From positions 1-36,749 of IMG/VR virus record IMGVR_UViG_3300017755_003289: DNA of 36,749 nucleotides. One strand, written 5' to 3'. Shown here piece after piece: positions 16,004-35,556 of the stretch (position 1 is the first letter of the stretch; every line of letters begins with the position of its first letter). The stretch is from a virus. Both the position numbers and the translations under genes were made by a program. Below the pieces are notes generated by a model, which was given only the letters and a program-made list of their open reading frames with translations, did not search any database and had not been told where the DNA came from.

Positions 16004-16077
16004 TAATTCCTCCCCATGTGTTTAGGACCGTGATCACGACTAATCCAATCTAATAATCTATACCAATTCTTACGCAC
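16003..16077 (-). CDS. Possible 24-aa peptide after the Rieske gene
   Basis: A GTG-started frame overlaps the end of the Rieske-type gene by 8 nt and ends in TAATG with the next gene. The sequence VRKNWYRLLDWISRDHGPKH is protein-like (Trp, Arg and amphipathic) rather than random AT-rich translation. It may be a coupling peptide or the remnant of a longer protein. No clear ribosome-binding site is seen. Confidence 0.35.
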   Translation of the reverse strand: MRKNWYRLLDWISRDHGPKHMGRN

Positions 16078-17128
16078 GGTATGGATCTAGATTTAGATAC
16101 TTCCCCCATTCGGTATAATAGTGTCGCATACCGACTTCGTCGTGTATAGTTCCGTTCTCGTGTCTACCATGCAGTATACGTCTGTTCTCTGTGCCTTCAC
16201 GCATTGTTGTTCCTTGCCCAGCCACTCCTATTAGGTCTTCGTGTAGGTTACGTCCAAACGGTCCCCATATTGAGTTGTGATGGTTAACACGAGTTAATCT
16301 TTCTTCTGGTGTGTCTTTGCGTAGTCCATATCCTCTAAACTCTATTAGTACTTTGTTTGGTCCTAGTGGAGTTACTGAGTCTGAACGATATGCACTTCCT
16401 CGTAGGTTAAAATTGAATCCTGGAAATAGGTCAACCATGTACCACTGGTTGGGCGGCAGGTTAGGAAAAGATAATTCTCCGCGGTCTTCAAAACCGTCAT
16501 ACTCAGTATAGTTAACAGTAAAGCTAGACACGTTGACATGACCATTATCAAAAGGAACATTTTTTCTAGCGAAGTACTCATCATTGAATCCCGACACACG
16601 ATTGAAGTAGTGCATGAAGTCATGATAAAATTCTGAGTTGGTATCATGCCACAACTTGTAATTGGTATTGATGACTGCTTTGTGATAATGAAATACTTCT
16701 AGTTCTTCTGTGTCAATAGCATCAGCAATACAATCAAATGCACCTGCTGTCCATTCATCTACAGACTGCGTAGGATTAGGATCAAGTGTTACCCATACCA
16801 TTCCTCCGTGCTTTACTTCACAGTGTAGTTTAGGTTCAACTGTTACAACAGGTGCTTTAAATGTACCGCTTGGTTGACTAACTCCATAGTTTCGCCATGC
16901 ATGAACACGTTTGCCAGTGTTGTATGCAAGTACGTTTACACCTGCTATCTGTGAAGTTCTAAAGTCTCCTTGTTTATACATTTCACTAATGTGACATATA
17001 GGAACCCAAACCTTACTAAAGATCTGTTCTTGTTCTTGTGCAAATATTTCGTAGTTGTTGTAGCATCTGCTACTGATAGACTCTACCTGTGGGGCTTTTA
17101 GCCATTGAGTGTGATTACGAGGTGGCAT
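16070..17128 (-). CDS. Rieske-type oxygenase alpha-subunit-like protein lacking Rieske cluster ligands
   Basis: The 352-aa protein keeps the catalytic domain of Rieske non-heme iron oxygenases: YKLWHDTNSEFYHDFMH supplies H169 and H173, and RNLHEDLIGV supplies D298, the 2-His-1-carboxylate iron site. The N-terminal half follows the Rieske-domain layout (SKVWVPICHISEM, RVHAWRNYG, GGMVWVTLDP), but where C-x-H and C-x2-H should bind the [2Fe-2S] cluster it reads HAWRNYGVSQPSGTF and is shortened. Its only cysteines (22, 45, 103, 133) do not form the motif. The normal electron route is therefore missing. AAGGAG precedes the ATG. fpr lies upstream in the same orientation. I infer an altered or regulatory enzyme. 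Confidence 0.78.
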   Translation of the reverse strand: MPPRNHTQWLKAPQVESISSRCYNNYEIFAQEQEQIFSKVWVPICHISEMYKQGDFRTSQIAGVNVLAYNTGKRVHAWRNYGVSQPSGTFKAPVVTVEPKLHCEVKHGGMVWVTLDPNPTQSVDEWTAGAFDCIADAIDTEELEVFHYHKAVINTNYKLWHDTNSEFYHDFMHYFNRVSGFNDEYFARKNVPFDNGHVNVSSFTVNYTEYDGFEDRGELSFPNLPPNQWYMVDLFPGFNFNLRGSAYRSDSVTPLGPNKVLIEFRGYGLRKDTPEERLTRVNHHNSIWGPFGRNLHEDLIGVAGQGTTMREGTENRRILHGRHENGTIHDEVGMRHYYTEWGKYLNLDPYRA

Positions 17129-17211
17129 GAATTGCTCTCCTTACTTTGCAATATATTTAATTCAATATAACACATAAACAAAGCACAGTCTAATAGTGTG
17201 CATCTATTAGG

Positions 17212-17604
17212 TTATAGATTTGTTTCAGACATCTGTACTTTGGTACGACGCCTGCGTTTCTTTTTCTTCCTAACACCGGTCCTACGTTCCTCTGCCATCT
17301 CTGCTTCAACCTGGATACGAGCTATTCGAGCCTCTTCCCAAACTCGAGCTCTTCTTTCGTTGAACACTCTTTGATCTTCTGCTGTGTCATATCTTTCTTT
17401 GACACCAATGTTGTCCCAATCCTTCATACGCATATTGATTTTGGTTTGCATAATACCTGTGCTCAACGAAACTCGCTTGTAGCCTTTTACCACCCAACAC
17501 AGTCTGTATCCACACACAGGCCATCGTTTGTCCCACAGTTTTAAATACCACAGTTCTGCTTTCAGCCACTTCTTTCCTGAGGGTCGATCTTTGATTGAGT
17601 TCAT
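17212..17604 (-). CDS. Hypothetical basic protein, 130 aa
   Basis: I do not recognise it. The N-terminal half is Trp/Lys-rich (KKWLKAELWYLKLWDKRWP) with two cysteines; the C-terminal half is a charged helix (RRARVWEEARIARIQVEAEM) ending in a run of Lys/Arg (RKKKKRRRR). It may bind nucleic acid. AGGA lies about 9 nt before the ATG. It lies between fpr and the Rieske-type gene. A competing frame (17387-17689) overlaps fpr and looks less protein-like. Confidence 0.5.
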   Translation of the reverse strand: MNSIKDRPSGKKWLKAELWYLKLWDKRWPVCGYRLCWVVKGYKRVSLSTGIMQTKINMRMKDWDNIGVKERYDTAEDQRVFNERRARVWEEARIARIQVEAEMAEERRTGVRKKKKRRRRTKVQMSETNL

Positions 17605-17625
17605 GATGTAGTTCCTTGTTGCTGT

Positions 17626-18366
17626 TTAGGCCGCGAATGCTTTTTCGTACACAAAGTTGCCAATGGCAGAGTGTGATCCCACAGTCCATCCACCCTGTTT
17701 CATAGTGTCGATCATCTGTCTGTTGAAGTCAGGTCCGCCACATATCATAACAGAATCTGTTTCAGGTTTCCATGGATCTGTCTGCAATGCTTCAAACACT
17801 TTGCCTGAATCAATGAGATCTGTTATTCTTCCTGTGTTTGGAAATGCACTGTCTCTAGTAGTGGTAGGAAAATATTGCAGTCGCGGTGTTTCTGTGCCTG
17901 CTGTGAGATACATAAAGAAATCTCTGTATGCAAGGTCTTCTTGTTGTCTTACTGTGTGACATACAAATATTTTGTTGAATCTAGTATACGTTGCTGGATC
18001 TCGACAGATACTAACAAAAGGTGCAATACCTGTGCCTGTAGCAATCATCCACAGGTTTGTTTTAGGTGTTAGTATGTCAGCCAACAGTGTGCCAGTTGCT
18101 TTAGGAGCCACTGTTACAGAGTCTCCCACTTTGATATCTTTTAACTTTGACGTTAGCGGACCATCCGGCACAATAACTGATAAGAATTCCAAATAGTCTT
18201 CACCTGGGCCACTCACCATTGAATAGGCTCGAAACAACTTGGTTCCGGGCAATCCAATCATTGTGAATTCTCCAGCTTCAAATCTAAAACTTGCCGATCG
18301 AGTAGTTTTGAACGAAAACAATCCGGAATTGATATGATTTACTTCTGTTACAGTTTCTGTTAGCAT
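17626..18366 (-). CDS. fpr: Ferredoxin/flavodoxin-NADP+ reductase
   Basis: The ~246-aa protein is a bacterial FNR: FAD-binding RAYSMVS (about residues 47-53), NADP-binding MIATGTGIAPF and VMICGGPDF, and the C-terminal VYEKAFAA, as in the alphaproteobacterial FPR subclass (ending in EKAF). It passes electrons between NADPH and ferredoxin or flavodoxin. The frame is open to 18429, but the ATG at 18366 begins the conserved region and coincides with the predicted +1 of the promoter at 18373-18401. It leads the unit fpr-17212-Rieske-type gene. It could feed the non-heme oxygenase directly or via a host ferredoxin. Confidence 0.88.
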   Translation of the reverse strand: MLTETVTEVNHINSGLFSFKTTRSASFRFEAGEFTMIGLPGTKLFRAYSMVSGPGEDYLEFLSVIVPDGPLTSKLKDIKVGDSVTVAPKATGTLLADILTPKTNLWMIATGTGIAPFVSICRDPATYTRFNKIFVCHTVRQQEDLAYRDFFMYLTAGTETPRLQYFPTTTRDSAFPNTGRITDLIDSGKVFEALQTDPWKPETDSVMICGGPDFNRQMIDTMKQGGWTVGSHSAIGNFVYEKAFAA

Positions 18367-18372
18367 TATTAT

Positions 18373-18401
18373 AATATACAGCCTTTCTTCGAGTGTGTCA
18401 A
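18373..18401 (-). promoter_or_regulatory. sigma70-like promoter giving a leaderless fpr transcript
   Basis: On the minus strand, TTGACA (18401-18396), 17-bp spacer, TATATT (18378-18373). The predicted +1 falls on 18366, the A of the fpr ATG. The GCGTAAA repeats lie 44-106 bp further upstream. Confidence 0.7.
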
Positions 18402-18444
18402 CATTAAATTTATTATTATAGAAACTCAACGAGGCGGAAATCGT

Positions 18445-18507
18445 TTTACGCTTATTTACGCTTACGCATTTCTAAAATTTACGCTTTACGCAAAATTATT
18501 TTTACGC
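18445..18507. repeat. Cluster of six TTTACGC repeats
   Basis: Five exact copies of TTTACGC start at 18445, 18455, 18478, 18485 and 18501, with a sixth near-copy, CTTACGC, at 18461. All are in one orientation, within 63 bp. The region lies upstream of the fpr promoter and overlaps the end of the 18486 gene. Iteron-like direct repeats suggest a protein-binding array: operator, enhancer or origin element. Confidence 0.7.
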
Positions 18508-18695
18508 GATTGCATCGCTTTGTTCCCCCATGCCTCTGGACATATACTTTTCATTGCATTAATAATTTCTTCTGCTGTCCACGTTCCGTACATCTTTTTG
18601 TGCATGAATGCTTTTTGCTTATCCAATTCAATTTCGTTATGTAATTCTTTAACAAATGTTTCTAAGTACTCTTGCTCGGTTAATGTTTCTTTCAT
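18486..18695 (-). CDS. Hypothetical helical protein, 69 aa
   Basis: Not recognised. Charged and helical (MKETLTEQEYLETFVKELHN), with WTAEEIINAMKS and one cysteine. It starts 17 bp after the btuB-like stop and is probably the third gene of the riboswitch-controlled transcript. Its stop codon lies inside the TTTACGC repeat cluster. Confidence 0.55.
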   Translation of the reverse strand: MKETLTEQEYLETFVKELHNEIELDKQKAFMHKKMYGTWTAEEIINAMKSICPEAWGNKAMQSRKNNFA

Positions 18696-18712
18696 TTTAT
18701 ATACAAATTATA

Positions 18713-20551
18713 CTAGAACTTCAGTTTGTATGTCAACAGCATATTCCTTCCATGTTGTGCATAACCATCTGGTCTTTCGTACGTTTCGTCTAGTGCATTG
18801 TTCAATGAGAACACTATATTAGACTTATCGTTTATTTGATAGTTTGTATGGAAATTTGCAACACCAACTGATGGTTTCATTATTGTTGCATAAGTGGTAG
18901 AGTCTATGTCCAGGTGTTCTCCTGTGTACAGATACTCTGCAGTGTTAGTCCACTTGTCCATGTTCCAATCAACAGCAGTTAGTCCTAACCATTTTGGTCT
19001 TCTAGTTACTGAAGTGTTAGTACTGTCCTCTGCTACTGTCCATGTTGCATTGTTTCTCCAATAAACATTTTCAGCAATCAGACTGTTGAACTTCACTTCT
19101 GCACCATGTCTGTTTGATGTGCCCGAAGCATTGGAGTATGTGCTGTTACCATACGTTATTAGATTTTGTAAATCAGTTGTGAAGTAAACAACGTCCAACA
19201 CACTGTTGTTGAAACTGTATTCAAATCCAATGTCCATTGTCTCTGCCTCTTCTGGCTGTCGGTTTGGGTTTCCGTTGTAACCGTAGTTGTCGGAACCGTG
19301 CATTTCATACAGGGTAGGAGTCTTCACAGATGTTGCATAGTTGCTCTTTAATTTCAATGCGCCTGTTAGGTCGTAAGTTCCGCCCAGTCTGTATGTGGTG
19401 TAGTCACTAAACAGACTTGGATCATCTTGTCTGATACCTGCTGACACTAACAACTTGTCTGATGCTATAAAGTTACCGTTAACAAAGTATCCTATGTTCT
19501 CGCCATTAGTGTCTACTTTGGCAGTGTAACTTCCAGTGTTGTTGAATGAACCATCAAAATATTCATACTCTATGCCTGGTGTGATGTCATACTTGTTTTT
19601 CAGTATAGTATTTGTTAACAACACAGTGTTACTAGTAGAATCATATGTGTCTACCTCTGTGCCATTAACATACTCTCTGTCGTACTCTGTACGAGAAAAT
19701 GTAATGTTGTAAAACCCAAGACTATTGTCTACCTTGCTTGACAGTTGATAAAGATTCATATCACTCTCAGCAGTGTAGTCAAGGTCGTCACTGCCACTAG
19801 CGTCTAGATCTGAATCACTTGTTCTTCTGATCAATGTTGATCTTATTTCAAGACCATCATACTTACTTTTTGTGTTAACTGTAATATTGTTTGCATCAAA
19901 TCCATCTTTCTCTGTTCCAGCCGGTGCAATAGATATACCATCAGATTTTGTTCCGTCCGCTATCATGCTGATAGAATGATTGTTGATATCTCTGTGTATC
20001 TTGAGTGTTATACCTTTGGTGTTGTTGGATCCTATTGTTGTAGATATGCTGTTGGCATAACTGTCTGTTGTTATAAAGTTTATTACTCCACCAACTGCGT
20101 TAGCACCATACAGTGTACCTTGCGATCCTTTGACTACTTGTATTCCTGTAACGTGTTTTATAAAGTCAGAACCTATATCGTGCAGTCCGCCTGTTGTAGA
20201 ATGGTCTTTGATTGCAACACCGTTAATAGCAACCATTGTATGATTAGAGTTCATGCCTCTCATGAACACTGATGTTTGCTGTCCTGTGGGACCAGACTGT
20301 ACAACATTCAATCCAGTTATTCTGGCTATTGCTTGTACTGTATCTATAGTGTTTGTGTTCTCAATAGTGTACTGATCAATATAGTCTACACTCATTGATT
20401 CTGTTGTAAGGACACTTGGATCTCTCAGTACGAATTTTGTTATTTTTATGCATGGAGTATTATCCTCCCATACACATTCTTTAGATTGCTCTGCCTGTGA
20501 CCCTGTGTGGAAAAACAATAATGTTAAGACTGCTAGTAATGTTTTCTTCAT
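18713..20551 (-). CDS. btuB: TonB-dependent outer-membrane receptor, BtuB-like (cobalamin)
   Basis: The ~612-aa protein has a signal peptide (MKKTLLAVLTLLFFHTGSQA), a plug domain (IDTVQAIARITGLNV; VFMRGMNSNHTMVAINGVAI; QVVKGSQGTLYGANAVGGVI) and an alternating beta-barrel ending in LTYKLKF with terminal Phe, as outer-membrane barrels need. The plug motifs are canonical for TonB-dependent receptors. Substrate B12 is inferred from the cobalamin riboswitch upstream. AAGGAG before the ATG at 20551 fixes the start. Size is close to E. coli BtuB (594 mature aa). The gene overlaps the previous one by 71 nt. A complete receptor on a phage genome is exceptional. Confidence 0.85.
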   Translation of the reverse strand: MKKTLLAVLTLLFFHTGSQAEQSKECVWEDNTPCIKITKFVLRDPSVLTTESMSVDYIDQYTIENTNTIDTVQAIARITGLNVVQSGPTGQQTSVFMRGMNSNHTMVAINGVAIKDHSTTGGLHDIGSDFIKHVTGIQVVKGSQGTLYGANAVGGVINFITTDSYANSISTTIGSNNTKGITLKIHRDINNHSISMIADGTKSDGISIAPAGTEKDGFDANNITVNTKSKYDGLEIRSTLIRRTSDSDLDASGSDDLDYTAESDMNLYQLSSKVDNSLGFYNITFSRTEYDREYVNGTEVDTYDSTSNTVLLTNTILKNKYDITPGIEYEYFDGSFNNTGSYTAKVDTNGENIGYFVNGNFIASDKLLVSAGIRQDDPSLFSDYTTYRLGGTYDLTGALKLKSNYATSVKTPTLYEMHGSDNYGYNGNPNRQPEEAETMDIGFEYSFNNSVLDVVYFTTDLQNLITYGNSTYSNASGTSNRHGAEVKFNSLIAENVYWRNNATWTVAEDSTNTSVTRRPKWLGLTAVDWNMDKWTNTAEYLYTGEHLDIDSTTYATIMKPSVGVANFHTNYQINDKSNIVFSLNNALDETYERPDGYAQHGRNMLLTYKLKF

Positions 20552-21068
20552 CGTCCGTATATCTCCTTGATATGTTTGTTGCCGAGTAGGACACAAGACT
20601 CAAAAGAGAAACGTAAAATAAAGTACCTGCCAGTGTGTTGCCAAAGAACGGAATTGCCATTGTGTAGCAAAGTATTAGTCCGTCCAGTGTAGGTGGGTAC
20701 ATTGTACCAGACATCCATACCGCAAAGTTTGTTATCACAAAAAATATTGTTGCTGACAACAGTGCGTTGGATCCCAGATGAACATACGTTTTCTTCATAG
20801 ACATTGTGTAATGACTCAATGTAGTGCCTAACAAGATACTGGCGTAAACCCAAAACATACTTGAATGTAAACCCAAGTAAAGATCCGAAACAAACATAGC
20901 CAACAATGGTACTAGCATAGCCGAATATAGATCACGTGTCAGATATGGCATGAACACTGCCATTGCAAGTACAGGTGTGAAGTTTGGTGGATGAGGTATT
21001 ATCCTACTCAAGGCAATCAAGCCTACGAGATAGAAGAATAACACAATCTTTTGTTTTGTTTTTTTCAT
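20481..21068 (-). CDS. DUF6580/ECF-S-like membrane protein, candidate B12 transporter component
   Basis: The ~195-aa hydrophobic protein has about five or six helices and the landmark RIIPHPPNFTPVLAMAVF near the start, with SDLYLGLHSSMFWVY after the third helix. I associate this with the DUF6580 family, which resembles ECF transporter substrate-binding subunits. Its place directly behind a cobalamin riboswitch and ahead of btuB suggests B12 or precursor uptake across the inner membrane. The ATG at 21068 is chosen because GAGAA precedes it; ATG 21080 and GTG 21104 are alternatives. The last ~23 codons overlap btuB. Confidence 0.68.
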   Translation of the reverse strand: MKKTKQKIVLFFYLVGLIALSRIIPHPPNFTPVLAMAVFMPYLTRDLYSAMLVPLLAMFVSDLYLGLHSSMFWVYASILLGTTLSHYTMSMKKTYVHLGSNALLSATIFFVITNFAVWMSGTMYPPTLDGLILCYTMAIPFFGNTLAGTLFYVSLLSLVSYSATNISRRYTDDEENITSSLNIIVFPHRVTGRAI

Positions 21069-21127
21069 AACAGTTCTCATTAAACGTGTTAACGTTAATG
21101 CCACTGTTAACTTTACATTGTAGAACT

Positions 21128-21285: not shown

Positions 21286-22704
21286 CTAAAGCTCTTCATC
21301 AGAGTGTAGTTCGTTTAGTAGTTGACGTAATTTTCCACCTTCTACTTCTGCTTTTACTTTGCCTACACTTTCACCTTTTCTAGGATCAGGCTCTACAGGT
21401 GTCCCAGGAGTAACTTTAGATTTTTGTTTTAATGAATCATATATGCTACTTTTATTTTCTTTAAAGCTCTGTGCTTCTTCTTCACTTAAATCAGATATTC
21501 TTAAACTATCAATATTAAATTCCAAATCAACTTTTTGTCCTACTCCAGAACTGGATCTAGTTTTCATAAATTGTACTTGATATCTTCCACGCTCTTTCAT
21601 TGCTCTACTAGTAAAAATACCAATTACATTATCTGCTGTTTGGATTTTTGAAAGTCCTCCTGCAATATGCGAATGATCAAACTCAATCTCTTCTACTGAT
21701 GCTCTGTTCAACTGAGATGCTGTTGCCATTAGTAGCTGACTTTCTACTGCATAGTTTCTAAGTTCTTCTGAAACATATTTGTCTTTAATAAACAAATCTG
21801 CTGGCGATATCTTTTTACTCTTAGGCATCATTAGATCTAAGTAATCTATTAAAATACATTCTATTTTTTTCTTTGTTTTTAATTCTAATTCTTTAATGTA
21901 AGATTTAATATCAAGCACAGTACTCCCACTAGATAGATATTTGATATGTAATGCACCAGCTTTTTTGGCTAACATCTTAACTTTCATTTCAACAGTATCC
22001 ATTTCTGGAAAAACTTTTCTTGTTGGCATATTAGTCATCATTGCATCAAGTCTCATTGCAGTAAGTCCTTCGCTTAATTCAAAACTAATGTAAACGGTGT
22101 TAAGGCCAGCCAGTGACCAATTTACTGCAAGATTCTGTAGAAATAAACTTTTACCTGCACCTGATCCGCCTGCAAAAATGTTTAGTTCTCCTCGGTTAAA
22201 TCCACCGAACAGTTTCTTATCTAAATTGTTCCAGCCTGTACTGACCTGACCGTTGGAGTTTTTTAATAACTCCAATCTACTTTTTGGATCTGCAAAGTAG
22301 TCTGTTCCAAGATCTCTTGTTAAGCCAATGTTAACAGCATCTTTAACCATATCCTCAACTGGTGCATAATCTCCTTTTTCTAAAAGGTCTGCAGATTGAA
22401 GAATTGCTCTTTCTAAAGATTTATGTCTTGAAAATGTTTCAAACTCGTCTAATAGCCAATTAAAGTGATTTGGATCTAGATCTTTTGCTGATTTAAAGCC
22501 TACTGTAAATTTAGAATTTACTTGTTCAACCTCTGGCATAACTTTATATTCTTCAGCATAATCTTTAATAAATTTTGCTACTGGTTGTAGCTTACGATCA
22601 AAGTTCAAAGGTTCAAAAATGTTTTGTGCTCTTGCAAACGATTCTGCATCTGCCAGCATCATTTCCATATACAACTTTTGTACATCATGTGTATAATCAG
22701 GCAT
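21286..22704 (-). CDS. 41: DnaB-type replicative DNA helicase (T4 gp41-like)
   Basis: The 472-aa protein has Walker A GGSGAGKS (about residues 178-185), Walker B ILIDYLDLMMP and the later SQLNRASVEE (DnaB motif H3/H4 region). The N-terminal 170 residues form the helical interaction domain. It would be the hexameric 5'-3' helicase at the phage fork, working with the primase encoded immediately upstream (8-nt overlap). An acidic C-terminal tail (LHSDEEL) is typical of this group. Length matches T4 gp41 (475 aa). Confidence 0.92.
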   Translation of the reverse strand: MPDYTHDVQKLYMEMMLADAESFARAQNIFEPLNFDRKLQPVAKFIKDYAEEYKVMPEVEQVNSKFTVGFKSAKDLDPNHFNWLLDEFETFSRHKSLERAILQSADLLEKGDYAPVEDMVKDAVNIGLTRDLGTDYFADPKSRLELLKNSNGQVSTGWNNLDKKLFGGFNRGELNIFAGGSGAGKSLFLQNLAVNWSLAGLNTVYISFELSEGLTAMRLDAMMTNMPTRKVFPEMDTVEMKVKMLAKKAGALHIKYLSSGSTVLDIKSYIKELELKTKKKIECILIDYLDLMMPKSKKISPADLFIKDKYVSEELRNYAVESQLLMATASQLNRASVEEIEFDHSHIAGGLSKIQTADNVIGIFTSRAMKERGRYQVQFMKTRSSSGVGQKVDLEFNIDSLRISDLSEEEAQSFKENKSSIYDSLKQKSKVTPGTPVEPDPRKGESVGKVKAEVEGGKLRQLLNELHSDEEL

Positions 22705-23713
22705 TCATTTTCCTTTTTAAATTAATTTTCAATTTATTAGACTCTGTTGTTTTTAATATTGATTGCATAGTATATAATCTTCCATATTTTAACACAGCAT
22801 CGGCCACATCTGCAACCTCTTCTTGCCATGTTGGAAAAGCAACACTCCATCTGTTTTCGATTGCTTGATCTATCAATTTTTGCCCAGGAGCATCTCTATC
22901 TGGTACAACAATTACTCTTCTGTTGAGTCCTTGTATTAGTTCTTTCTGTACATCACTGATCTCTGATCCTAGTATAGATACACCACCAATTGCAATAGCA
23001 TCAAATGGACCTTCTGTTACAATAACAAATTTCCTAGACCAATCCTGTGCATCCATATTAAAAACATACCCAGGTTGTACTTCAGTATAATATTTTACCT
23101 TTTTTGCTTCTGTGAATATTCTACCAGTGTAACCAACAACATCACCTTTCCAATAGAACGGAATAATAATTCTGTGGTTAAAATCAAACTGTAAAGCAGA
23201 TGAGTACATAAAATCATACCAAGTTGGATCTACTCCTCGTTGTTTTAAATAATTTAATAAACTATCTATCTTGTTAAATTGAGGATCTGTTAAATCTTTT
23301 GCAATATATTTTTCTAACCAAATATCTAACTTATGTGAATTTTTTGGTAACGGTCGTTTTTCAAATGATACAAATTTTTTCTTTTCTTGCCATTGGGCTT
23401 CAACACCTTCTAGTTTTAATGCTTCGATTGATAATTTTTTAATTTCAGTATCCGACACTCCTAAAAATCCTAATAGTCTTCTTAAATTTGCTGAAAGTTT
23501 TCTACCGGGAGCAAACGAACTTTTCCAACCACAGTTAAAACAATGATATGATATTGTGCCATCAGCTGAAGTCATAACTCCGCCTCTTTTTCTTTTGTCA
23601 GCACTTTCTCCATTATGTATACAGCAAGGAGCATTAAATGAAATCCAACCCGAAGGAGTCTTCTTTTTGTTCGCAGGTAAGGAATTCAGAATTGTCGACT
23701 GGATCAGGTTCAT
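22697..23713 (-). CDS. 61: DNA primase (T4 gp61-like)
   Basis: The 338-aa protein has an N-terminal zinc-binding region (CCIHNG...YHCFNCGW, about residues 30-63) and a TOPRIM segment (FVIVTEGPFDAIAIGG, then VVPDRDAPG), with catalytic E and D residues in the expected places. It makes RNA primers for lagging-strand synthesis and pairs with the gp41-like helicase. Length equals that of T4 gp61 (342 aa). It overlaps the helicase start by 8 nt. Confidence 0.92.
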   Translation of the reverse strand: MNLIQSTILNSLPANKKKTPSGWISFNAPCCIHNGESADKRKRGGVMTSADGTISYHCFNCGWKSSFAPGRKLSANLRRLLGFLGVSDTEIKKLSIEALKLEGVEAQWQEKKKFVSFEKRPLPKNSHKLDIWLEKYIAKDLTDPQFNKIDSLLNYLKQRGVDPTWYDFMYSSALQFDFNHRIIIPFYWKGDVVGYTGRIFTEAKKVKYYTEVQPGYVFNMDAQDWSRKFVIVTEGPFDAIAIGGVSILGSEISDVQKELIQGLNRRVIVVPDRDAPGQKLIDQAIENRWSVAFPTWQEEVADVADAVLKYGRLYTMQSILKTTESNKLKINLKRKMNA

Positions 23714-24547: not shown

Positions 24548-24922
24548 ATGAACGAAATTTTTAAAAAACTAGGAACAAAATTTCCTTTCTTATCGCTTGT
24601 TAAAAAGGGTGATTTAGAATATGTTGGAATTGTACAGAACCAAGATACCAATGTTATAAGCTTCTATGACTATGGTAGATTAATCACAATTGAAGACAAA
24701 GAGCTGTATTTGAGCTTAGGTGAATCATGGTGGTGGGAATCTAATAGAAAAATACCTATTAATATATTCCTTAAGAAAGACTTTAAATATTTTAAAACTA
24801 CACTAATAACATTAAGTGGAAAAGACACTCAAGTAGTACACGGACCTACAGTACGTTTGGATGATATAGCAAAGAAAAGAATAAAACGAAGAACTATCCA
24901 GTTAATGCGTAAGCCTACTTAA
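24548..24922 (+). CDS. Conserved T4-like-phage hypothetical protein, 124 aa
   Basis: The protein (MNEIFKKLGTKFPFLSLVKK, then YVGIVQNQDTNVISFYDYGRL) looks like a small beta-barrel protein that I remember as common in marine T4-like phages without known function. SWWWESNRKIPINIFL is a notable aromatic patch, and the C-terminus is basic (KKRIKRRTIQLMRK), suggesting RNA or DNA contact. It is the only plus-strand gene between 15600 and 30536. It converges with the 24915 frame by 8 nt. Confidence 0.65.
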   Translation: MNEIFKKLGTKFPFLSLVKKGDLEYVGIVQNQDTNVISFYDYGRLITIEDKELYLSLGESWWWESNRKIPINIFLKKDFKYFKTTLITLSGKDTQVVHGPTVRLDDIAKKRIKRRTIQLMRKPT

Positions 24923-25070
24923 TTTTAGCTGTACTATTAATCCCACAAACCTTCTCAAAATATTTCGTTAAAGGACTATTAGCCTGATACGAATCAAGTT
25001 CAGATTGTAAAGATAATTTGGATTTCTTATGTTTTTTAAGGATTCTTTTTTTCGTTTTCTGATGGTGCAT
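24915..25070 (-). CDS. Small Lys-rich protein, 51 aa
   Basis: A frame starting MHHQKTKKRILKKHKKSKLS and continuing through an acidic/aromatic middle ending TAKIK fills the gap after the DnaE-like gene. It overlaps that gene by 35 nt in another frame. Its composition, with a strongly basic start followed by a typical helix, looks coding. There is no clear ribosome-binding site, so coupled translation is likely. Confidence 0.45.
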   Translation of the reverse strand: MHHQKTKKRILKKHKKSKLSLQSELDSYQANSPLTKYFEKVCGINSTAKIK

Positions 25071-25641
25071 CAAAACTATATTTAGCACGTGCTATTAAAT
25101 TCATCTGTACTACGATTGCATGAGCATAAGCAATGGCGTGTGACTTCTTAAAGAAATAACTACCGTCTTTGGGTTTTACCCAAACATCGTTCATTATATC
25201 CTGCCAATCTTTATACATTAATCCTCTTTTAGCAGGACGTATAATAGCTAGTACAGCCGCAAGTTGTTCTACGTTTTTAGGCTCTAGCTTTTTAACAATA
25301 TCATAATGACCATTTAAATGAAACAGTTTATCCACAATAGTTGGATCATTTAACATTTCCCAGTCTGGTTCTTTAACCATAAGTTCAACAAGGTCTTGTT
25401 CAGATTTTACATTTTCATACACAGAAACATTTAATAGATCAATCTTAAAATATCCTCTACCTTCTGCCTGCTTGTAATCAAAACTTGAGTTTTTAGTTTG
25501 CGGATTTATAGGAATAGCATGAAAGTATATTCCTGTTTTGTGCTTTTCATGAATTTCTTTTTTTATCATAGTTGCTGATGTGTGTTTGAATAATGACAAC
25601 ACTCCATCTCTATCAAAAAAATCAATATCTACATCAGGCAT
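25036..25641 (-). CDS. Miniature DnaE (C-family DNA polymerase core)-like protein
   Basis: The 201-aa protein carries in order the landmark motifs of the bacterial Pol III alpha palm: MPDVDIDFFDRD (residues 1-12, as in PDFDVDF), FKIDLLNVSVYENV (D68, as in FDFLGL), LFHLNGHYDIVKKLEP plus LAAVLAIIRPAKRGLMYKDW (residues 107-146, as in QLES...LFRPGP) and FFKKSHAIAYAHAIVVQM (residues 163-180, as in FNKSHAAAY). All three catalytic aspartate positions are thus represented, but the ~150 residues normally between the first two are cut to ~60, and PHP, finger and beta-binding parts are absent. Active polymerase is doubtful; a nucleotidyl-transfer or decoy role is possible. Confidence 0.72.
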   Translation of the reverse strand: MPDVDIDFFDRDGVLSLFKHTSATMIKKEIHEKHKTGIYFHAIPINPQTKNSSFDYKQAEGRGYFKIDLLNVSVYENVKSEQDLVELMVKEPDWEMLNDPTIVDKLFHLNGHYDIVKKLEPKNVEQLAAVLAIIRPAKRGLMYKDWQDIMNDVWVKPKDGSYFFKKSHAIAYAHAIVVQMNLIARAKYSFDAPSENEKKNP

Positions 25642-25865
25642 TAGTTTAACTTTCTTTTATTATAATCTTTAAATTCTTTTTTTGCACCAGGTTGTAGTAT
25701 ATCTAACACATCTAATAACTTTTTATAAGCAACTGAATTTGTCATATGTGCAGTCATTTCTGGCATTACAACCTTGCCAACACTGCCATCTTTCTTAATA
25801 ACAATAATACAGTCACCTGGTTCAATTGACATTCCGTCTGCTATTTCACTTTCTATTCTACTCAA
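25641..25865 (-). CDS. Hypothetical protein, 74 aa
   Basis: Not recognised. The N-terminal part has IEPGDCIIVIKKDGSVGKVVM, which looks like a small SH3/Hfq-like beta unit, and the C-terminal part is a helix rich in Leu/Lys. It lies between the zinc-finger and DnaE-like genes and overlaps both neighbours by 1-8 nt, so it is part of the replication operon. Confidence 0.65.
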   Translation of the reverse strand: MSRIESEIADGMSIEPGDCIIVIKKDGSVGKVVMPEMTAHMTNSVAYKKLLDVLDILQPGAKKEFKDYNKRKLN

Positions 25866-26544
25866 TTTTTGCTCCTCTTACAGTTTCTTGCACAAACATA
25901 TGATCTGCTGGATACTGTTTAAATTTACTAGTCCAAAATTCTGGCTCTAAAAACCTTTCAACAATTTCTAATTGTTCATCAGTAAATGAGTTTAACATTT
26001 TTTTACCTGGATCACAACCTAAAACTAACCATGGAGTTATTTTTCCACGAGTAATATCATGTACAGCTCTTGGTGTAGAAACCAATCTAAAATAATCTGA
26101 CCATTGTGCATTTTGTTCTTCAGCCCATTCCATCATTGTTTGTATAGCTCTTTGTAGTGCCGCTTCTAGTGGTTCTAGTTTAAGAGTATCAATTAAATAT
26201 GTTTCATATAAATCATCTCTTGCCCAGTGATCAAGTTTTACTTTTGACATTATAATATAATCAATATATTTTTCAGGATACAATGGGTGGATGTGCATCA
26301 TGTATCGACCAAATTTTACAAATGCATTGTAGTATGGTGACTTACAAAAGTCTTCATATGATTTAGGTTTAGTTGCATTTTGGTGTATTTGATAAAATCT
26401 TTGAAATACCATGAAGCCATTTATTACCCATTTTTCATCTTTTTGCAGGTGCCTTCGCTTTGGTTCACATAGATGTACCTGAAGTGTTCTTGCTTTTGAA
26501 AAGCCTTTGCCACAATATGGACAAACGTTAATCGGAGTATCCAT
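25858..26544 (-). CDS. C2H2-type zinc-finger protein
   Basis: The 228-aa protein begins with a zinc finger, CPYCGKGFSKARTLQVHLC and the following PKRRH (C8, C11, H25 and C27/H32). The rest is helical with many aromatic residues and no enzyme motif. I recall similar zinc-finger proteins in cyanophage and pelagiphage replication blocks. It probably binds nucleic acid. It overlaps the gp62-like gene by 17 nt. Confidence 0.7.
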   Translation of the reverse strand: MDTPINVCPYCGKGFSKARTLQVHLCEPKRRHLQKDEKWVINGFMVFQRFYQIHQNATKPKSYEDFCKSPYYNAFVKFGRYMMHIHPLYPEKYIDYIIMSKVKLDHWARDDLYETYLIDTLKLEPLEAALQRAIQTMMEWAEEQNAQWSDYFRLVSTPRAVHDITRGKITPWLVLGCDPGKKMLNSFTDEQLEIVERFLEPEFWTSKFKQYPADHMFVQETVRGAKIE

Positions 26545-27707: not shown

Positions 27708-29162
27708 TTATTTGTCCCAATCTATTTTTTCTATATTATACGGGTAATTGGCCTCTTTGTAAAACTTTTTTCTTTGTGTAAGATGTCTTTTTGCAAATTT
27801 ACAACTACTGGTAATATCCCAAATTTGTACATTATCTTTATCTTCGGCTTTCCTAATGCCTCTTCCTATAGACTGTATAACCCTAACAAAAGATTTACCA
27901 GGCTCAATAAGCACAAGATTAAAAATACGTGGAATATTAATTCCAACAGAGGCCACGCCATATGTTGCAATGATAACTTTATTTTTTGCAGTTGAGACTT
28001 CATCGTAATGTTCTTTCCTTTCAGGATTTTTTGTTGAGCCAGATATAAAAACTGAATCGGGTATTGATTGATTTAGCAATTCTCCTGCTGAAATCCTATC
28101 AACTAATATAAGTGTATTTCCTGATGTTGCAATATCTTGAATTGTTTTTGCTACCCACCCCATGCGTTTTGTATCTGTTGTAAGCCATTTAAGTTCTTCT
28201 TGATAGTTTTTAAAACCAGGCAAGTCTATTGTTTGTAAAATATTTACGTGACAATTAGCTAATACTCCCTTGTCTTGCAACTCTTTTGCGGCAAGTTTAT
28301 TTGTTACGTCACCAATTGAACATTTCAATCCCATAAATTCAAAGTCTGCTTTAGGTACTGTACCTGTTAGCCCCCAACGTATGCCACAATGTGCAAACGG
28401 TCCTGTTAACAGTCTTTTAAGTACATCTGCTTTAGCCATGTGTACTTCGTCAATTATAATTGTGTTAATACCTTGTATTGCTTCTAAAAAGTCTGCAGTA
28501 TGCTCGTCCTTACTTTTCTTTTCTAATATGTTTAATGATTGCCAAGTTGCAATAGTGTTAAATCTTCCAAGTTCTTTTCTATCGCCATAGTATACACCTG
28601 TGTCTAAATTACAAGTAAGAAAATCTTCTTCAGTCTGTGTTACTAAACTTTTGTTTGGTACTATTGTTAATGTACGACCATATGGTTCAACTAATTTACA
28701 TAATGCCGCTGTAATAATAGTTTTTCCGGCACCGGTTGCAATTTCTTGTATGCTCTGAGGAGATTCTAAAAACTTGTTTATAGTTTCTACTTGATAATCA
28801 CGTAGCTCAATAGATTGTCCAGCCATTGGGTGCGAAGCAGGCCATTTAATATCTGACAAATATTTTTTATCAATTGCATTAAACTCAAAGTTGTGTTGTT
28901 TTCTTCTGTCTTCTAAATTAACATAAACTCCTGCATTTTCTAGTTCTGGAAGTATTTGATCTAGCAAATTTAGATACGATGTTCCTCCTAAGCCAAAAAA
29001 TGATACCTTACCGTCCCATCTACCTAACTTAACAGCCGGCAAATGTCTGGCGTACGGAATTTCATATTTAAATTTATTTGACAATTTCTTTCTCCAGTCG
29101 AGAGAAAGATCCTCAAATTTTATGTTTACTTCGTCTTTAATAATTAATTTACATGAACTCAT
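27708..29162 (-). CDS. uvsW: UvsW-like superfamily 2 DNA/RNA helicase
   Basis: The 484-aa protein has SF2 motifs in order: I EIATGAGKTIITA (about residue 140), II IIIDEVHMAK (DEVH), III GLTGTVPK, V/VI KVIIATYGVASVGINIPR and VIQSIGRGIRKAEDKD. The first ~120 residues match the UvsW N-terminal DNA-contact domain. UvsW unwinds R-loops and branched DNA and moves T4 from origin- to recombination-dependent replication. Length is close to T4 UvsW (503 aa). It overlaps its upstream neighbour by an ATGA junction. Confidence 0.93.
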   Translation of the reverse strand: MSSCKLIIKDEVNIKFEDLSLDWRKKLSNKFKYEIPYARHLPAVKLGRWDGKVSFFGLGGTSYLNLLDQILPELENAGVYVNLEDRRKQHNFEFNAIDKKYLSDIKWPASHPMAGQSIELRDYQVETINKFLESPQSIQEIATGAGKTIITAALCKLVEPYGRTLTIVPNKSLVTQTEEDFLTCNLDTGVYYGDRKELGRFNTIATWQSLNILEKKSKDEHTADFLEAIQGINTIIIDEVHMAKADVLKRLLTGPFAHCGIRWGLTGTVPKADFEFMGLKCSIGDVTNKLAAKELQDKGVLANCHVNILQTIDLPGFKNYQEELKWLTTDTKRMGWVAKTIQDIATSGNTLILVDRISAGELLNQSIPDSVFISGSTKNPERKEHYDEVSTAKNKVIIATYGVASVGINIPRIFNLVLIEPGKSFVRVIQSIGRGIRKAEDKDNVQIWDITSSCKFAKRHLTQRKKFYKEANYPYNIEKIDWDK

Positions 29163-33550: not shown

Positions 33551-34564
33551 ATGAAAAAGATCAAGTGTCAAATATTCCGTAGAACAGTTAAAGATCGTAG
33601 AAGAGGCGATTCTTATCAGCTTTTATATGATTTTGCTGAAGGTGTAAAAGCAGTAGGAGATGAAGTTGAAATAGTTAATGAAACTATGACTGGCCCAACA
33701 CAAGACGGCGAAATGAACATTACAGCACCAATTGGTGTTATGTTTGGATACGGTGGATCAAACCAACTGCATCATACTAAAGGCAGAAGACATACACTAG
33801 TTGAGAATGCAAAGAAAAGCGGAAGTGTTGTAATAACATTTGACGGAGGTTTATGTTCAAGTTTTGGTAATACTTCAGGAGTTCCAGAACACAGATATAG
33901 AGTTTCGTTATGGACACCTATGAGAAACGGTGAATTTTTTGAAAAAGATTCTCCCAACGATCGTTGGAACGACATGAAAAATATATTCAATATTAAAGAC
34001 TTTGAATGGCAAAAAAAATCTAGTGACGATGCTCCAATAATTTTTGTGTTGCAACCAAGCGACAATTGGTCAATGAACGGGTTAGAGCCAATTGAATGGT
34101 TTAACGATGTTTATAAAAAACTAAGACCGTTAACTAAAAGAAAATTTATAGCAAGACCTCATCCAAACCATGCTCAGGCAATGTATGATAAACGAGATAA
34201 GTTTCCTGCAGATGTAGAATTAATGATTCCACAAAAACAATTTAGCGGAGACGAAAAAAAGAATTATAGATTTCATTTTCAAACAGCATTAAACGATTGT
34301 CATGCAGTAGTTACACACAATTCAACTGCAAGTGTTGATAGTTGTATTAGAGGAATACCTACTTTTGTGACAAGCGATCTTGCAATATGTTATCCAGTAG
34401 CTAACACAGATCTTAGTAAAATTGAATCTCCAGAGTTTCCAGACAGAACACAATGGCTTAATAACTTAGGTTATATGATGTGGACTATTGATGAAATTAG
34501 ATCTGGCAAAGTTTATAAAAGATTCCGTAATAAAGTTGAAGAATCTAATTTAATATCATTATAA
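33551..34564 (+). CDS. GT-B-like glycosyltransferase, paralogue 3
   Basis: The ~337-aa protein has FIARPHPNHAQAMYD (about residue 195) and AVVTHNSTASVDSCIRGIPT with VTSDLAICYPVAN about 60 residues later. It ends with the family's W-x-x-x-E-I-x-x-G motif (MMWTIDEIRSGKVYKRF). The ATG at 33551 is used; the GTG at 33542 is less likely. It diverges from the GT-A gene, only 34 bp apart, and overlaps the GT61 gene's end by 52 bp. Confidence 0.68.
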   Translation: MKKIKCQIFRRTVKDRRRGDSYQLLYDFAEGVKAVGDEVEIVNETMTGPTQDGEMNITAPIGVMFGYGGSNQLHHTKGRRHTLVENAKKSGSVVITFDGGLCSSFGNTSGVPEHRYRVSLWTPMRNGEFFEKDSPNDRWNDMKNIFNIKDFEWQKKSSDDAPIIFVLQPSDNWSMNGLEPIEWFNDVYKKLRPLTKRKFIARPHPNHAQAMYDKRDKFPADVELMIPQKQFSGDEKKNYRFHFQTALNDCHAVVTHNSTASVDSCIRGIPTFVTSDLAICYPVANTDLSKIESPEFPDRTQWLNNLGYMMWTIDEIRSGKVYKRFRNKVEESNLISL

Positions 34565-35556
34565 TCATTCATTCGTTTAAATTTCTTTTGTCTAGTATCT
34601 TTTAATATTGGCACAGGTTCTCCGTGCAATACAGTATGATCTAGTCCACAAAGGTGAGATAGATTTGGATAAACATATTTGGCTGTATGTTTGTGTACAA
34701 TTTCAGTTACTTTAGTTCCAGGTCTGCACCATAGTAAGTTTACTAGACCAGCACCGTGTGTTCCTGCAACATGACTAGCATTCGCAAATGCAGACACTTG
34801 TTCGTCAACAGACATATCTTCAAGCACCAGCACTTCCCAACCTTTGAGATTAGCAAACACTTCTTCTTTATTAGTTAACTGTCTTGATCCACCAGCTCTA
34901 TCAATAAAAATTTTTCTAGACTGTCCTTGGTCAGCAGTAGTAGATTTAAATCTAGATCTAAGCCACCCAACAGTTTTTGGATGTATAACTCCGTCTTTCC
35001 AGTTAACCATGCTTGGAACATATATTTGGTTAAAACGCCATGCTTCGTTCTTTGGCATAATAATATATCTAATATCTAAATTTAAATCTTTAATTGCTCT
35101 TGCAAGATACTTACTTTCATTAGGAATAATGTAAACAAAGTCTTTGTAAGATTTTGAAAGTCTAGTTTCAACTAGTCTTATTTTTCCAATTATATCAATC
35201 CAAATATGCCATGGGTTGTTTGCACTTGATTCATCAATTGGCAACCAAACATATTTTTCAGCTTCATTAAAATTTTTAGACACTGGATTAAAAGTGATGT
35301 CAACCGTATCTGACCAGTTAGTAAAGATGCCATGATTTTTTGGTTTGTTTTTTTGTTTCCACATTAAAGGCCATACGTGTTCGGTTACCAGTCTTCCGTT
35401 GTTAGTCATTAAGAAAGGTAACGTATGAACTGTTGCTTGATCAAACGATGCTAGGAAAGTCTGTTGGGTAGTGTGAGTTAGATAGGTAGTTGGCTCATCA
35501 ATAACTCCCCAATTATCCAAAAAATAGTTTAATGAATCTGTGTTTTTTACTTGCAT
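34513..35556 (-). CDS. GT61-family (DUF563) glycosyltransferase
   Basis: The 347-aa protein has RKIFIDRAGGSRQLTN (about residue 213), VLVLEDMSVDEQVSAFANAS and VAGTHGAGLVNLLWCRPGTK, which together are the GT61/DUF563 signature. GT61 enzymes transfer xylose, GlcNAc or related sugars. It is encoded against its neighbours and its end overlaps the paralogue 3 gene. Confidence 0.82.
   Translation of the reverse strand: MQVKNTDSLNYFLDNWGVIDEPTTYLTHTTQQTFLASFDQATVHTLPFLMTNNGRLVTEHVWPLMWKQKNKPKNHGIFTNWSDTVDITFNPVSKNFNEAEKYVWLPIDESSANNPWHIWIDIIGKIRLVETRLSKSYKDFVYIIPNESKYLARAIKDLNLDIRYIIMPKNEAWRFNQIYVPSMVNWKDGVIHPKTVGWLRSRFKSTTADQGQSRKIFIDRAGGSRQLTNKEEVFANLKGWEVLVLEDMSVDEQVSAFANASHVAGTHGAGLVNLLWCRPGTKVTEIVHKHTAKYVYPNLSHLCGLDHTVLHGEPVPILKDTRQKKFKRMNDYNDIKLDSSTLLRNLL

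Follow-up and report, generated by a model that had tools for sequence, protein, structure and literature searches.

The window analysed here is the whole 36,749-nucleotide stretch of an uncultured virus (IMG/VR record IMGVR_UViG_3300017755_003289, positions 1 to 36,749). At positions 25036-25641 its minus strand carries an open reading frame (ORF) of 201 aa plus stop, hereafter the C-half, whose protein contains in order the pieces MPDVDIDFFDRDGV, YFKIDLLN, LFHLNGHYDIVKKLEPKNVEQLAAVLAIIRPAKRG and FKKSHAIAYAHAIVVQMN. The ATG of this ORF is overlapped by one base by the stop of a small upstream ORF (25641..25865, minus strand, 74 aa), and an identical overlap is found 5′ of the C-half in the relative L015, which supports the assigned start. 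Further upstream, on the same strand, are two conserved neighbours, a C2H2-type zinc finger protein (25858..26544, phrog_11058) and a UvsW-like helicase (27708..29162). On the other side lie a convergent gene (24548..24922, plus strand, phrog_11637) that keeps its place and orientation in the named phages, a conserved gp61-like DNA primase recognised by profile match (22697..23713, minus strand), and a gp41-like, DnaB-like replicative helicase, also with profile matches (21286..22704, minus strand). With variations, the order UvsW, C-half (with other genes between the two), convergent small gene, structural gene, primase and DnaB-like helicase is recurrent among the phages that carry a homologue. 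The window also encodes a glycosyltransferase family 61 protein (34513-35556, minus strand; Pfam E 9e-21).

The C-half matches the family phrog_11778 ('DNA polymerase') over nearly its full length (E 8.9e-64, residues 3-187 of 201 on positions 8-195 of the 197-position profile) and weakly matches phrog_405, the DnaE family (E 1.4e-5). Both values are far beyond chance, in agreement with the first-pass annotation, which had read DnaE homology from four landmarks (PDVDIDF, KIDLL, LFHL..IIRP and FKKSHAIAYAH); all four are present in the ORF in that order. Pfam DNA_pol3_finger matches at E 0.011, below its cut-off, and Pol III alpha chains in the PDB match weakly by sequence (E 0.03-0.1), too weakly to dispense with structure. 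A tblastn search retrieved homologues from 66 phage records (35-53% identity, best E 7e-60), among them RaK2/PBECO4/121Q/GAP32/CBB-like phages, Atu_ph07, PA5oct/Paride, Phosso, SCTP-2, XacN1, Vibrio 2.275.O and Slicko01 (141 kb), and IMG/VR holds at least 593 relatives. The C-terminal tails of these proteins vary by clade, with KYSFDA.. in the clade of the window (25036-25070), PDPFKLFS in Paride and none in others. The Paride tail (L084 8540-8582) resembles, and may be, a hydrophobic clamp-binding peptide.

The DxDxD motif (D3, D5 and D7; 25621..25635) keeps all three aspartates in 132 of 132 distinct homologues. In a structural alignment that starts at residue 461 of the Taq enzyme and 400 of the E. 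coli enzyme, D3 and D5 are the counterparts of the two metal-binding aspartates of the DnaE palm, and the T. aquaticus register places them at 463 and 465, the positions of the known catalytic DxD. Also invariant in the 132 sequences are H34 and G37 of HKTG (25531..25542), the counterpart of HAGG/HCGG in the DnaE palm; K66 and D68, the third catalytic aspartate, in the K-x-D motif (25438..25446); R135 and P136 of the fingers (IIRPAK, 25234..25239), where the weak Pfam match falls; and F164, K165 and H168 of the FKKSH fingers helix (25138..25152), all of these motifs being on the minus strand. Counted residue by residue, D3, D5, D7, H34, G37, K66, D68, R135, P136, K138, K165 and H168 are unchanged throughout, and the window ORF has every active-site residue of its half intact. 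The patterns with which IMG/VR was scanned for C-halves held no aspartates, so the invariance of these residues is no product of the search. The first-pass annotation had named beforehand a lack of conserved aspartates as one of two observations that would speak against it, the other being a failure to match the Pol-beta-like palm; the acidic triad is instead intact in the ORF and in every homologue. When the C-half profile is compared by hhalign with a single unsplit DnaE core of the kind described below, the probability is 3%, yet HxxG, KxD and the fingers fall in register, HKTG on KHCGG and the D68 motif on LKVDIL.

The first-pass annotation had considered a relic; decay from a captured host dnaE would be consistent with the small size and missing domains of the protein, and with these alone. 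Pairwise dN/dS among C-halves of the window clade has a median of about 0.11, hundreds of intact homologues share the same boundaries, and the start overlapping the upstream stop is common to the window and a relative. Selection and conservation thus refute decay, to which we attach next to no probability, and the ORF is a C-family fragment of the DnaE type rather than a relic.

The AlphaFold model of the C-half (pLDDT 89.7) identifies which part of DnaE has been kept. Its only structural matches above Z 4 are 13 Pol III alpha/PolC entries (C-family chains at Z 5.9-9.6, first unrelated row at Z 3.8), which bears out the Pol-beta-like palm proposed earlier. Against E. coli 2hnh the match has Z 8.9 and an rmsd of 3.8 over 185 residues in the chain range 400-781. 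The 201 aa therefore span a 382-residue E. coli range with 185 residues aligned; about 200 residues are absent inside that range, which in the published domain naming are the thumb and part of the fingers, and the E. coli chain outside it is missing altogether, with no match before residue 400 or after about 781-817. The C-half has what characterises family C, a Pol beta-type palm with three metal-binding aspartates, the GRGS element not being in the same chain. The earlier claims that all recognisable palm landmarks occur in the ORF, and that a whole palm is compressed into 201 aa, do not hold: both the GRGS nucleotide-binding part and the thumb are absent, only the C-terminal half of the palm is present, and the N-terminal half is another gene. 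A complete miniature palm in a single chain was accordingly rejected. The extent of the alignment also bears on the suggestion of a decoy or inhibitor directed at the clamp loader or replisome of the host. Beyond its resemblance to host DnaE nothing favours such a role: the clamp- and tau-contacting parts are those lost where the alignment ends near E. coli 781-817, a decoy would have no need of catalytic residues or of a GRGS half encoded by another gene, and phages that infect very different hosts retain the family. We consider it very improbable.

In related phages the missing half of the palm is encoded elsewhere in the genome. All eight named phages carry a second gene of about 172 aa, the N-half (phrog_11127, retrieved in a search with the Pol III alpha nucleotidyltransferase domain), that holds the GRGS half of the palm and ends in the part preceding the DxDxD strand; this closing part, for example RaK2 GLGRGSSVSSYCLFLIGLHLVDSLKYDLDVNEFLKY, aligns with E. 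coli Pol III alpha 320-392. It lies tens to hundreds of kb from the C-half (148.9 kb versus 115.2 kb in RaK2), in most cases at 1-4 kb from the clamp-loader gene gp44. In its AlphaFold model (pLDDT 90.3), Pol III alpha/PolC chains are again the only rows that stand out, with Z scores of 7.5-12.2 for an aligned stretch of about 95 residues (E. coli ~279-395) compared to 2.4 for the first unrelated row. The end of the N-half (E. coli ~395) and the start of the C-half (~400) are separated by only a few residues. Residues 1 to about 80 of the N-half (for example L149 5977-6216) are matched by no part of DnaE in this structural comparison and may form a new docking domain. GxGRGS and a serine four residues on are invariant in 136 distinct N-halves, a figure to be read with the scan patterns that partly include GRGS and with a set that excludes minus-strand loci, Atu_ph07 and Slicko01 varying one serine after GRGS.

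The two halves are inherited together. The N-half is present in all six C-half contigs of at least 200 kb and the C-half in 12 of the 15 N-half contigs of that size; the three exceptions are explained by contigs that do not cover the C-half neighbourhood, since G051 and G075 have no gp41 and no convincing gp61, while the sequence of G108 only starts 2.8 kb before gp61. Among the C-half phage records listed, 57 of 60 recur in the N-half list, and the N-half of Slicko01, a complete 141-kb genome with both halves, was detected by profile. Each of the 30 genomes with both genes has a complete composite active site, and the N-half and C-half distance matrices of these genomes are correlated (Mantel r 0.67; the highest value in 2000 permutations was 0.44), although co-inheritance and correlated trees are partly expected from shared genome ancestry, which alone would also give a correlation. 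A family-B polymerase (PolB) accompanies the split pair in all eight named phages, as well as in G051, G075 and G108, and in six of seven further contigs, the one without it being a fragment of 134 kb. The first-pass annotation was thus right to find a C-family piece odd in such a phage group. In RaK2 and PBECO4 a DnaQ/epsilon-like exonuclease gene is located a few kb upstream of the C-half (L083 6721-7542, L089 2802-3620), and its product could be a proofreading partner.

With a replicase of family B at hand, and with the halves adjoining primase and helicase genes on one side and the clamp loader on the other, the pair might form a non-catalytic replisome subunit that bridges helicase/primase, clamp loader and PolB and needs no chemistry. 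This would leave unexplained why no metal-binding aspartate has been lost in 132 C-halves and no GRGS in 136 N-halves, and we regard it as improbable. The absence of any loss of a catalytic residue from either set makes catalysis the foremost hypothesis.

The N-half was found neither on the 36.7-kb window, where PF07733 has no match, nor on 18 and 47 related contigs of up to 121 kb, and two IMG/VR scans returned no N-half contig that also bears a C-half of the window type. Likewise, gp44 and PolB were not found on the window or on related clade contigs up to 121 kb. In the group at large the N-half adjoins gp44, and the fragments of this clade stop short of gp44; by analogy we infer that the window virus carries an N-half as well. 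Putative N-half matches in the related contigs (3 in the set of 18, 8 in the set of 47) turned out to be an unsplit DnaE of about 563 aa or a truncated copy of it. Two further weak DnaE matches were taken as chance, one in a tail-fibre-like repeat protein of Vibrio phage 2.275.O (123058) and one in a cysteinyl-tRNA-synthetase-like ORF of Phosso (170115).

This unsplit, PHP-less core of about 563 aa, or its truncated form, is found in 8 of 47 contigs of the window clade, for example at L224 1495-3183, L225 1579-3273 and L226 1396-3126 (the contigs of L015, L040 and L077). It carries PF07733 and PF17657 domains, matches phrog_405 at E 4e-69 and lies close downstream of the gp41 helicase, at a distance of about 5 kb from the C-half. 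A full-length copy, 38% identical, is also present along with PolB in the 484-kb uncultured phage LR756508.1 (47361-49064). Both this protein and the C-half are C-family cores, encoded a few kb apart in contigs of the window clade; unlike the C-half, the unsplit core is a single chain with a thumb and longer fingers, and is close to ordinary phage DnaE. Where relatives hold it, the window has a metabolic or transport island on the minus strand (16070-21104), made of a ring-hydroxylating-oxygenase-like alpha subunit (16070-17128), an FAD/NAD oxidoreductase (17626-18429), a TonB-dependent receptor (18713-20596) and a DUF6580 membrane protein (20481-21104). TonB receptor genes are unusual in phages; as an auxiliary gene, this one may have to do with nutrient uptake or with receptors.

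Taken together, sequence and models suggest that the C-half most likely forms one of the two chains of an accessory polymerase or nucleotidyltransferase. More specifically, it probably provides the C-terminal part of a minimal C-family nucleotidyltransferase core that is encoded by two genes and whose halves dock into one palm and act as an accessory polymerase beside PolB. From the features above we infer how such an enzyme would assemble, what it would catalyse and how the cell would employ it. The C-half would supply the Mg-binding DxD, the third aspartate and the template-side fingers helices, and the N-half, whose distant gene is a neighbour of gp44, would supply the GRGS motif, which in DnaE binds the incoming nucleotide by its triphosphate. 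The chains would dock into one Pol beta-type palm, broken a few residues before the DxDxD strand, so that DxD and D of the C-half hold two metals in a composite site, with the short fingers part (R135, K165 and H168) facing the template or the incoming nucleotide.

Without a thumb and with reduced fingers, the pair is as compatible with a small nucleotidyltransferase as with a polymerase. The same pair could therefore be a composite enzyme that is not DNA-templated and that synthesises a short oligonucleotide, nucleotidylates a protein or extends an end without a template; the active-site evidence serves both proposals equally, and the first 80 or so residues of the N-half, which no DnaE match covers, also speak for it. 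However, the halves lie among replication genes (primase, helicase, UvsW, clamp loader), and R135, K165 and H168, which belong to the fingers part of templated polymerases, are invariant, both of which argue for templated synthesis. We thus hold non-templated transfer to be rather unlikely. For the accessory polymerase, processive synthesis looks unlikely because it has no thumb, no clamp-binding or tau-binding region and little of the fingers. The split enzyme would probably be distributive and suited to short tasks beside PolB, such as gap filling, primer extension or repair. A more far-reaching reading, which we consider unlikely, is that the working two-chain enzyme divides replication with PolB, for example by strand or by stage, and that the unsplit core of the window clade brings the replicative-type polymerases of one phage to three. 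If active, the pair would be a C-family catalytic core of only about 370 residues, assembled from two distantly encoded chains beside a family-B replicase, and would inform both the number of polymerases per jumbo phage and the ancestry of the bacterial replicase. PBECO4 and Paride, among other isolated phages, provide material for study.

A split minimal Pol III alpha in group 2.2 jumbo phages has already been predicted (Iyer et al. 2021, PMC7824862); a truncated 172-aa alpha was noted in the CBB paper (PMC5259590) and gp316 in the Atu_ph07 paper (PMC6102473). In the literature searched we found no experimental test of the split enzyme. Since the arrangement was described by Iyer et al., the window gene is a new marine, uncultured member of a known system; new here are the residue-level conservation, the co-occurrence counts, the structural tiling of the two halves, the Slicko01 pair and the extra unsplit DnaE core. 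RaK2 F403_gp411 (YP_007007279.1) and Atu_ph07 FDI40_gp074 (phrog_11778) resemble the window C-half in their full-length family match, their neighbourhood and their active-site residues. Compared to these jumbo-phage proteins, the window C-half represents a marine uncultured lineage and begins at the DxDxD strand with no N-terminal extension; its partner lies outside the fragment, and some members of its clade add an unsplit DnaE core. In common with the DnaE of E. coli and T. aquaticus it has the DxDxD strand of the palm, HxxG, KxD and some of the fingers, and it differs from bacterial DnaE in being without PHP, the GRGS half of the palm, the thumb, most of the fingers and the clamp-binding, OB and tau-binding parts.
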